Positions 28,400-30,549 of a stretch of DNA of 64,000 bases are shown one piece after another. Location: contig JAFKEE010000025.1 in the NCBI GenBank assembly GCA_017307505.1, forward strand, positions 124,001-188,000, given 5' to 3'. Every line of letters starts with the position of its first letter. Positions within the stretch are counted from its first letter, which is position 1. The DNA comes from Acidobacteriota bacterium. Its GTDB lineage: Bacteria > Acidobacteriota > Terriglobia > Bryobacterales > Bryobacteraceae. The translations under genes were made by a program, and so were the position numbers. The notes below the pieces were generated by a model. That model was not told the origin of the DNA and did no database searches. It saw only the letters and a program-made list of their open reading frames with translations.

Positions 28400-28457
28400 C
28401 GTATGACAGGATAACGCGCGCAGCTTCCAAGGGGGCCGCCATGTTAGATTGAACCCT

Positions 28458-29366
28458 GTGAAGCGTTCCTTAATCCTGGTACTTTCGCTGGCGGTCATCG
28501 CCGTAGCTCTCCTGGCCATCCACCCGCCGCTCCGCTATTGGGCGCTGGTTCTCATCGGCCGCGGCTCCGGTTGCACCACCCAGAGAGCCTGGGCCATCCA
28601 GGCGGAGAAAGAGGAACTCACCCGCGTCAAGGACAGCATCCTGGCCCATACCAAACTCCTCCAGAAGGAATACAAAGGACTCGAGCTGTATCAGACGCCC
28701 TACGGCAACTTCTGGACCCCCGCCGGCAGCCGCTTCATCCTGCCGTTCAATCTCTCCGAGGAGGCTACCCACATCTACGGCACCGGAGAGCAGTTCGTCC
28801 ACAAAGGAGACGTTGTCCTGGATTGCGGAGCCAATGTCGGCACCTTCGCCCGTTTTGCCCTGGATGCCGGGGCGAAACTGGTGGTCGCCATTGAACCGGC
28901 ACCCGACAACCTGGAATGCCTTCGGCGCAACTTCGCCAAGGAGATCGGCGAGAACCGGCTGGTGATCTATCCCAAGGGTGTCTGGGACAAGGACGATACC
29001 CTGGAACTGCTGGTGGACGAGGACAACCAGGCCGCCGACAGCTTCGTCATCCACCGCCATGGCGCCAAGGCAGTGGCGAAGGTTCCGCTGACCACCATCG
29101 ACAAGATGGTCGACGAGCTGAAGCTCGATCGCGTCGACTTCGTCAAAATGGACATCGAAGGCGCCGAAGTGAAGGCCCTGGCAGGCGGCCGCGCCACCAT
29201 CGCCAAATACCATCCGCGGATGTCGCTCTCGGTTTACCACCAGGAGGACCATCCAGTGGAGGTCCCCAAGGCCGTCCTGGCCGCCTGGTCGGGCTACACC
29301 ACGGAATGCGGACCCTGCAATGCAGTGGAGAACCGCGTCCGGCCCGACATCATGTACTTCCACTAA
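28458..29366 (+). CDS. FkbM family methyltransferase, membrane anchored
   Basis: This 302-residue protein has an N-terminal hydrophobic helix ([19 protein letters not shown]), a linker and an FkbM-type methyltransferase domain. Motif I is [22 protein letters not shown], followed by [17 protein letters not shown], then [10 protein letters not shown] and [19 protein letters not shown], all hallmarks of the family. These enzymes O-methylate sugars or polyketides; the target here is unknown and may be an envelope glycan. The start is uncertain: GTG at 28458 is chosen over TTG at 28449, and neither has a good SD. Confidence 0.85.
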
Positions 29367-29536
29367 AAACAGCCCGAGCTATCTTTTGCGCACGCAGTGT
29401 CCCAAGGCAATAAACCGGCGTGGGATGGCTGAAGACGTTGCGTGTCTGAGGGGGTTCCGGACGTTGCACCCCGGGTGCTCCGCCGCCTCTTCGCTCGTTG
29501 CACCGAGGCGCTCGGGGTAGGCATAACCGGCTGGAA
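29367..29536. other. Gene-free stretch after the FkbM gene
   Basis: No gene is visible between the FkbM stop and the 3' end of the candidate small RNA. Short GC-rich inverted segments occur, but none has a T-run on the plus strand. Confidence 0.3.
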
Positions 29537-29634
29537 ACAAAAAGGCCGATGGGGACTCGGAGGAAGATCCCCACCGGCACAAAGCCAGCTTGAATCGGAG
29601 GAATGCTGGCCTACTCGTACTAGATGTACGCTCT
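29537..29634 (-). ncRNA. Candidate small RNA with two anti-Shine-Dalgarno hairpin loops
   Basis: Read on the minus strand, about 98 nt form three consecutive hairpins. The first is CGUAC-loop-GUACG (29616-29630). The second has a GCCAGC/GCUGGC stem with a 15-nt loop (29584-29610). The third is an 11-bp terminator stem (29545-29555 with 29568-29578) followed by UUUUUG. The loops of hairpins two and three both contain UUCCUCCGA, complementary to ribosome-binding sites. One base pair of the terminator is G-U only on the minus strand (A-C on the plus strand), which supports the orientation. The 5' end is inferred from TATTAT at 29642-29647. It might instead be the 3' end of the coaX operon transcript. 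No known RNA family is recognised. Confidence 0.6.
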
Positions 29635-29641
29635 AGAGGAG

Positions 29642-29670
29642 ATAATATCACAACGGCCCGAAGCTGTATC
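29642..29670 (-). promoter_or_regulatory. Candidate promoter of the small RNA
   Basis: On the minus strand, TATTAT (29642-29647, 5 of 6 to the -10 consensus) and GATACA (29665-29670, 3 of 6 to the -35) are separated by 17 bp. The predicted start is an A at about 29634. Confidence 0.4.
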
Positions 29671-29850
29671 CCCCCGCAACACATAATGTGTACTTTTTGT
29701 GAGGTCTTTTAAGAGAATCTAACAATTCTCATTAAGTTCTTATAATCCAAGGGGTAAGGCCGATTACATTGGTGCGCAATAAGGCTCCGGGAGATAGCCC
29801 TCCTGGTACTCTTCTACGTTAGTAATGGCACTCAAATCTGCCTCTCTCGC
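29671..29850. other. AT-rich gap downstream of the coaX operon
   Basis: No gene is visible. This is the most AT-rich part of the window, with a consensus TATAAT on the plus strand (29741-29746) but no matching -35. An AGAAT...ATTCT inverted repeat (about 29713-29729) is also present. A plus-strand transcript from here would run antisense into the 29851 gene. Confidence 0.3.
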
Positions 29851-30549
29851 TCAGGTCATGTAGAACAGGCTCAGCCTCGGCAGGCGAAAGTGGTCATAGA
29901 CTTTTTTGTCGAGGTAAGTCTTCTCCAGCCGGATGAGTTGGTCGGCTGTCATCTTGCCTCGATACGGCTTCAATTGCAGTTCCAGCTCGCGGCGCATTGC
30001 GAACAACACCTCCTCGGAGAGGCGTGTCCGGGCGATCGCCGACATCTTGTCTTCCAGTGCGGTGAGACGCTGATCGAGCTCTTCCAAGTTCTGGAAGTGT
30101 ACCTCAATGGATGCCAGCAGCGCTTCCACCGGCTCGGCAATCTGCTCGTAGCCCGCGGCCGCCCGCAAAGCTTCCGCACACTTGCCCAGATGAGCCTTCA
30201 CCGACTCCAGCGGGAACGCCGACTCTTCGGCCGCGGCTGCCCCGCTCGACGCTATGTTGTTGGCCATGGCTTCGGCCTCCTTCATCACCGCCTGGGTGCA
30301 GTAAGCCAGCGAGTTGACCATCTGGGTCTTCTGCTTCCGCGAGCGCCACTTCTCAAAGGCGGCATCAATGCCGCGCAGCACCGCCTCCAGGGGAATCCCC
30401 GAGTTCTTCCAGCTCTCCACCATCGCCCAATCCAGCGGCGACATCAGAAAGAGATGGCTGCCCCGCGCGCGCTGGAAATGCTCCTCTACTTCAGTGAAGT
30501 AGTTAAAGTAGTTCAACCGCCAGGAGCCGTCGTCCTTCAGCTCCGTCAC
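29851..30549 (-). CDS. Conserved hypothetical protein coupled to coaX
   Basis: This 232-residue soluble protein is translated from a GTG that overlaps the coaX stop (GTGA). The first half (GSHLFLMSPLDWAMVESWKNSGIPLEAVLRGIDAAFEKW) looks like a compact helical domain, and KQKTQMVNSLAYCTQAV recalls helical DNA-associated domains. The second half (about 125-225) is a long charged helix or coiled coil (LEELDQRLTALEDKM...). No signal peptide, membrane helix or catalytic motif is visible. I do not recognise the family, and coupling to coaX does not define a role. Confidence 0.75.
   Translation of the reverse strand: MTELKDDGSWRLNYFNYFTEVEEHFQRARGSHLFLMSPLDWAMVESWKNSGIPLEAVLRGIDAAFEKWRSRKQKTQMVNSLAYCTQAVMKEAEAMANNIASSGAAAAEESAFPLESVKAHLGKCAEALRAAAGYEQIAEPVEALLASIEVHFQNLEELDQRLTALEDKMSAIARTRLSEEVLFAMRRELELQLKPYRGKMTADQLIRLEKTYLDKKVYDHFRLPRLSLFYMT

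Follow-up and report, generated by a model that had tools for sequence, protein, structure and literature searches.

Small RNAs (sRNAs) that carry a CCUCC-type motif include CcsR1-4 of Rhodobacter, which are induced by stress. These are described as being processed from the 3' UTR of ccaF1 (PMC8625941), whereas for the RNA considered here a promoter of its own is predicted. The closest described system is ar14/NfeR1 of rhizobia (Rfam RF02344, Alphaproteobacteria), for which one account gives three hairpins with stems of different sequence, an identical anti-Shine-Dalgarno (aSD) motif and action in trans, and reports occlusion of strong Shine-Dalgarno (SD) sites by NfeR1 (PMC10746234). In the cyanobacteria, Yfr1 and Yfr10 are likewise lineage-wide RNAs that have a terminator and pair with other RNAs through a fixed CU-rich motif; this motif, ACUCCUCACAC, is placed by the same sources in a single-stranded linker of Yfr1 rather than in its terminator loop, and in a loop of Yfr10 (PMC2190773, PMC6778093). 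For the Acidobacteriota, a table in one review counts four annotated sRNAs for the phylum (PMC9029176, Table 1), and the candidate RNAs Acido-1, Acido-Lenti-1 and Solibacter-1 have been listed from Acidobacteria or Solibacter (PMC2864571).

Here we describe a locus in a 64,000-nucleotide stretch of DNA from a member of the Bryobacteraceae (contig JAFKEE010000025.1, positions 124,001 to 188,000), which is called the window below and supplies all coordinates. Acidobacteriota are abundant in soil, and an RNA that most of a family shares, with its fixed seed, predicted stress promoter and candidate targets, would offer an entry to post-transcriptional control in this phylum. The locus very probably encodes a small regulatory RNA that is conserved over much of the Bryobacteraceae.

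Comparison with known RNAs

The first-pass annotation held that no known family fits this RNA. This stands as far as Rfam is concerned, since nothing reached threshold for the window or for the loci of ten relatives, but ar14/NfeR1 is the same in kind. It is also the best sub-threshold match, at 15.1 bits (E 0.79) against a cut-off of 58.8. Both RNAs have three hairpins and repeat one aSD motif in several loops. The motif is however UCCUCCGA here and CCUCCUCCC in ar14, it occupies one or two loops here and three in ar14, the phylum is another one, and an ECF-like promoter motif precedes the present RNA in 31/51 genera. Where ar14 has CCUCCUCCC in each of its three hairpins, the window has UUCCUCCGA in two of three. 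The likeness is thus best read as an sRNA that would work like ar14/NfeR1 yet falls outside the ar14 family model, and it is probably convergent; the sRNA would then be a second origin of the multi-loop aSD design known from rhizobia.

The Yfr1 motif is absent from both strands of 29480-29720, and there was no Rfam match to Yfr1. Acido-1 and Acido-Lenti-1 have Rfam numbers (PMC2864571), unlike the present RNA, which has no Rfam family at threshold. Solibacter-1, for which the same table shows no such number and with which identity is possible, is listed from Solibacter usitatus alone (PMC2864571), whereas the RNA described here is mostly single-copy and family-wide. No description of this sRNA was found in the open-access literature searched.

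The locus and its fold

The predicted sRNA and the parts of its locus are listed in Table 1. We take the convergent downstream gene to be an FkbM-type methyltransferase.

Table 1. Features of the sRNA locus (positions in the window) and two tandem matches to model R2 in other genomes
Feature	Position	Strand	Basis or remark
Predicted small RNA, ~100 nt	29536..29636 (about)	minus	ends predicted from fold and conservation
Hairpin 1, CGUAC/GUACG stem	29616..29630	minus	double changes at 4/5 pairs in 13 sequences
Hairpin 2, first CCUCC loop	29582..29612	minus	GCCAGC/GCUGGC stem invariant in 13/13 sequences
aSD motif UUCCUCCGA, copy 1, loop of hairpin 2	29595..29603	minus	P unpaired 0.66-1.0
Hairpin 3, terminator hairpin with fixed loop	29545..29578	minus	12 pairs; covariation in 68 sequences
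aSD motif UUCCUCCGA, copy 2, terminator loop	29557..29565	minus	CCUCC fixed in 68/68 sequences
U-tract (U5) of Rho-independent terminator	29539..29543	minus	sequence
Putative extended -10 promoter TGTGATATTAT	29642..29652	minus	sequence; related sites in genus
Upstream 232-aa gene next to CoaX	29851..30549	minus, same strand as sRNA	ORF call
Convergent downstream gene	28449..29366	plus	ORF call
Tandem R2 matches, genus g42	G167:C88:72-112 and 271-313	minus	L346
Tandem R2 matches, genus g42	G156:C33:74277-74363		L347

At first pass the locus had been read as three minus-strand hairpins ending in a Rho-independent terminator, and both the fold and the U5 tract confirm this. The minus strand of 29527-29644 folds at -41 kcal/mol (z -2.84), and none of 200 shuffles was equally stable. 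The plus-strand fold of the same stretch is nearly equal (-40.9, z -2.44), so that energy alone cannot choose the strand. The orientation had been argued from a single terminator pair, and this argument holds: the pair (column 6/32 of alignment A4, see below) is G-U on the minus strand only, and the U-G and G-U pairs that are frequent across A4 fix the minus strand as the RNA strand. A plus-strand RNA of CsrA type, with GGA in its loops, was rejected on grounds other than energy: its strand lacks a U-tract, and U-G pairs seen in relatives would turn into A-C on it.

The identical 9-mer TTCCTCCGA, which had been noticed in the loops of hairpin 2 and of the terminator hairpin, is present in both. 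Its two copies in the window compare with 0.56 expected, and two or more turned up in 10 of 100 shuffles; it is the placement and conservation of the 9-mer that are remarkable, and not its count alone. In the terminator loop the letters CUCC are unpaired with a probability of 1.0 and the remaining letters of the motif with probabilities of 0.13-0.72, and the flanks of this copy of the motif are partly paired in the minimum-energy structure. An inner stem of this loop (C-U-U/G-A-G) was rejected as a feature of the family, because it is broken at two pairs in relatives, at one in 12/65 and at the other in 23/68.

A consensus promoter and terminator scan over 29000-30200 picked up neither end of the sRNA and called no terminator; its single promoter-like site lies on the plus strand at 29719-29746. 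Close by, a short stretch at 29735-29758 with a plus-strand TATAAT is 80% identical in three congeners, and its surroundings are not. A direct repeat, CGTTGCACC, stands at 29462 and 29496 (29462-29504), just downstream of the sRNA.

A covarying stem and a fixed loop

It had been set in advance that an invariant loop on a covarying stem should be looked for in relatives. Both were found in alignment A4, which holds 68 sequences from 52 genera: the shape of the terminator hairpin is kept by covariation, and the hairpin displays a nearly fixed UCCUCCGA loop. In the 12-bp stem 98.2% of 815 cells are paired, against 36-44% in slid controls, and double changes occur at 10 of the 12 pairs. The loop contains CCUCC throughout and UCCUCCGA in 66/68 sequences, with the two bases that precede UCCUCCGA varying. 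Of the 68 sequences, 58 have at least four T in the first seven columns past the stem, and the remaining 10 are without such a tract.

Hairpins 1 and 2 were compared in the 13 sequences most like that of the window (Table 1). As the stem of hairpin 2 does not vary at all, covariation speaks neither for it nor against it. A second hairpin with CCUCC/CUCCGA was seen at 22 of 96 loci, in 13/51 genera including that of the window, although the cases in g5 and g19 look doubtful; in other genera the CCUCCGA motif of the second loop stands on unrelated stems. This 96-locus set was made without L002-L008, L031, L034 and L120-L137 (chance, coding or non-family matches), without identical segments and without L089, which is in A4. 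By computation, the loci look like a discrete RNA element of defined strand; promoter-like sequence precedes it and, in most members, a U-tract follows.

Distribution among relatives

A DNA search at E<=0.01 matched 26 of 151 genomes, own genome counted. One of these genomes, G142, has a match (L031) that looks like chance, as does the second of the matches in G032 (L034). The sRNA is single-copy in the window's own genome, the other eight matches there being 16-20 nt long. In three congeners, identity per 20 nt is 0.90-1.00 across 29539-29638. Downstream it falls to 0.45 and then 0.15, and upstream it is 0.70 over the -10 region and then 0.25; segments beyond the sRNA and the -10 region lie at 15-55%, and the flanking genes at 50-85%.

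Model R1, built on the terminator hairpin, has matches at E<=0.01 in 181 of 237 Bryobacteraceae genomes and 57 of 76 genera, and in 123 of 148 good genomes. By a hand count, 143 of the 181 genomes have matches at E<=1e-6. Some genera have none, g55 for example (0/8 listed genomes). In a class sample of 399 genomes model R2 had matches in 87. Bryobacteraceae account for 80 of these, five of which are doubtful since their 34-37 bits are no better than non-family matches; in a phylum sample the model matched 10/297 genomes, three of them Bryobacteraceae. Seven genomes outside the family were thus matched in each sample, at 29-38 bits among the 399 and 32-35 bits among the 297, and the five of these 14 matches that were inspected (G129, G432, G481, G525 and G725 = L267) are plain terminators.

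In the class sample R1 also gave weak matches in 35 genomes from outside the family. Among the 18 fetched, none had CCUCC in the matched stretch and 16 were plain GC-rich terminator hairpins. A CCUCC loop was present in none of the 19 non-family weak matches inspected, 17 of which are plain terminators. The other two, L121 and L136, carry CCCCC in the loop. In L136 (f6) the loop CUUCCCCCGAG is similar but the stem does not form; the membership of L121 (f11), with loop CUCUCCCCCGAGU, is undecided.

Two minor observations concern individual records. In a pattern scan of named genomes, 50 of 54 records had acidobacterial titles, and MAG records titled Arcobacter, Acidimicrobiia, Sumerlaeaceae and Bordetella parapertussis (L180, L181, L176 and L203) carry the sRNA; for three of these four the title looks wrong. 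In genus g42 two R2 matches stand in tandem, about 200 nt apart in G167 (L346) and 44 nt apart in G156 (L347).

Promoters and upstream genes

The motif AAC-N15-19-CGTC precedes the loop by no more than 200 nt at 46/96 loci, in 31/51 genera, although some of the matches (e.g. L024, L026, L028 and L086) lie nearer the hairpin than others and may be chance. In shuffles the average was 4.8 loci (4.2 genera) and the maximum 10 loci, and 13 control scans, of other intervals or the other strand, gave 1-10 of 90-96 loci. AAC at -35 and CGT at -10 are described as marks of ECF sigma promoters, with a spacer of 16+/-1 for ECF41 (PMC3426412). The motif is absent from all eight loci of the window's genus, where TGTGATA stands upstream in six and TGGTATATGAT in two, both read as an extended -10. 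The TATTAT that had been proposed as a promoter element in the window was located at 29642-29647, where it forms part of the putative extended -10 TGTGATATTAT; the -35 is weak.

The ORF upstream of the sRNA lies on the same strand in 82 of the 94 loci with one called, by crude ORF calls. These upstream genes vary from genus to genus, so that the loop does not serve any single gene in cis; from their sequences we presume them to include Nramp-like, MFS and phosphoglucomutase-like genes, the neighbour of CoaX, and others.

Proposed action and alternatives

We favour the reading, with a probability of about 0.78, that these loci form a trans-acting sRNA family of the Bryobacteraceae whose loops would block strong SD sites. 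In about half of the genera or more, an ECF-sigma promoter that answers to stress would drive transcription of the RNA; in the genus of the window an extended -10 promoter would do so. It may be aided by Hfq, which is present in all ten genomes checked, one of them without the sRNA. Its loops would pair with GGAGG(A) SD sites and so stop ribosome binding. In our own gene calls GGAGG sites are uncommon (10/189, 9/363 and 19/536; 28/899 pooled over the latter two sets). With few genes having such strong sites, the effect would be limited to few targets, and the best candidates so far are exported PEP-CTERM proteins. Action on a small number of genes with a strong SD is therefore more likely than the global regulation suggested at first pass; sites with the full complement of the motif before ATG are rarer still.

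The fixed loop could instead be a binding site for protein, either a dedicated RNA-binding protein or a regulator that is sequestered, with its match to the SD sequence incidental. Such a site might explain why UCCUCCGA is fixed beyond the five letters required for aSD pairing, why the hairpin 2 stem does not vary and why the perfect complement UCGGAGGA is carried by few genes. We nevertheless consider it quite improbable, because the motif stands on unrelated stems and in loops of varied size, as pairing predicts, because its complement is the ribosome-binding consensus, and because ar14/NfeR1 offers a reported precedent for aSD loops (PMC10746234).

Pairing with another RNA in place of mRNAs, be it 16S rRNA or a partner sRNA, seems very improbable, even with the precedent of Yfr1, which is described as pairing with Yfr2 (PMC6778093). 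The loop part CUUCCUCC of g1 is complementary to a conserved 16S segment, GGAGGAAG. However, in five copies from four Bryobacteraceae genomes the segment reads UUGGAGGAAGG or CUGGAGGAAGG and not CUCGGAGGA, so that the fixed 3' GA(G) is unmatched, and the loop letters that would lengthen this pairing differ between genera. On these mismatches 16S rRNA was rejected as the partner for these four genomes. Two scans recovered the segment from 4/13 and 2/13 genomes, owing to gaps in the MAGs or to sequence variants, and the 16S of the window's genome was not found. Least credible of all is that the element does no more than terminate the upstream gene, or is a piece of its 3' UTR with no function in trans. 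The prevalence of a same-strand upstream gene suits this idea, but the loop stays fixed while the upstream genes differ, a terminator requires no fixed loop, promoter motifs precede the sRNA, and the 19 weak matches inspected from other families lack the CCUCC loop.

Candidate targets

If the sRNA acts by blocking SD sites, genes led by the full complement UCGGAGGA might be among its targets. In nine genomes, 3-38 such sites per genome stand before ATG, against 3-16 for the reversed pattern; G032 has three, against four of the reversed control. We examined 110 of the 148 sites in these nine genomes (all in seven, 4/7 in G050 and 3/38 in G000). Of these, 109 were located and 54 led an ORF of at least 60 aa, many of them perhaps not genes. 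Recurrence among the 54 ORFs comes down to a pair within one genus and a pair from two different genera (36% identity, 248 aa, E 2e-49). The latter looks like what we take to be a many-copy permease family, and there is thus no convincing target shared across genera among the 54.

A PEP-CTERM tail is present in six of the 54 ORFs, which led to a post hoc test of PEP-CTERM genes. Nine of the 148 sites precede such genes, three of them added by comparing position and frame. For the test, 89 PEP-CTERM loci were given and 78 were usable, 11 being dropped as no signal-peptide start was found; start-codon calls were crude, and genes within a genome may be paralogs. In sRNA-bearing genomes, GGAGG precedes 32/58 PEP-CTERM genes with a signal-peptide start, against 3/77 other signal-peptide genes, or 11/208 in a second set. 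When matched by genome over nine sRNA-bearing genomes, the counts are 35/67 for PEP-CTERM and 7/123 for other genes, and in the window's own genome 10/15 and 4/68. Exceptions among sRNA-bearing genomes are G032 (0/7) and G012 (2/10). G190, a single genome of genus g55 that has no R1 match, has GGAGG at 3/20 or 1/20 of its PEP-CTERM genes, depending on the count. Among five ORFs with PEP-CTERM-like tails in background loci, picked by regular expression, none had GGAGG.

The bases around GGAGG were also compared. A C precedes it at just 8/32 PEP-CTERM sites, so these sites leave the 3' GA of the loop unexplained. An A follows it at 24/32, but also at 7/9 and 7/19 in two background sets, and this A is therefore not specific to PEP-CTERM genes.

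PEP-CTERM genes as targets of the sRNA are a lead, not a result. It is conceivable, though on balance unlikely, that an ECF-controlled stress RNA silences a whole class of exoproteins through the strong GGAGGA SD site that PEP-CTERM genes of several Bryobacteraceae genera share. In that case the ribosome-binding site itself would be the address of the regulon, GGAGGA being complementary to the fixed UCCUCC, in a logic comparable to that of sigma-E sRNAs and outer-membrane proteins. Independently of what the sRNA does, strong GGAGG ribosome-binding sites are frequent in the PEP-CTERM genes of G000, G006, G240 and G242 (L350-L439) when set against other genes.
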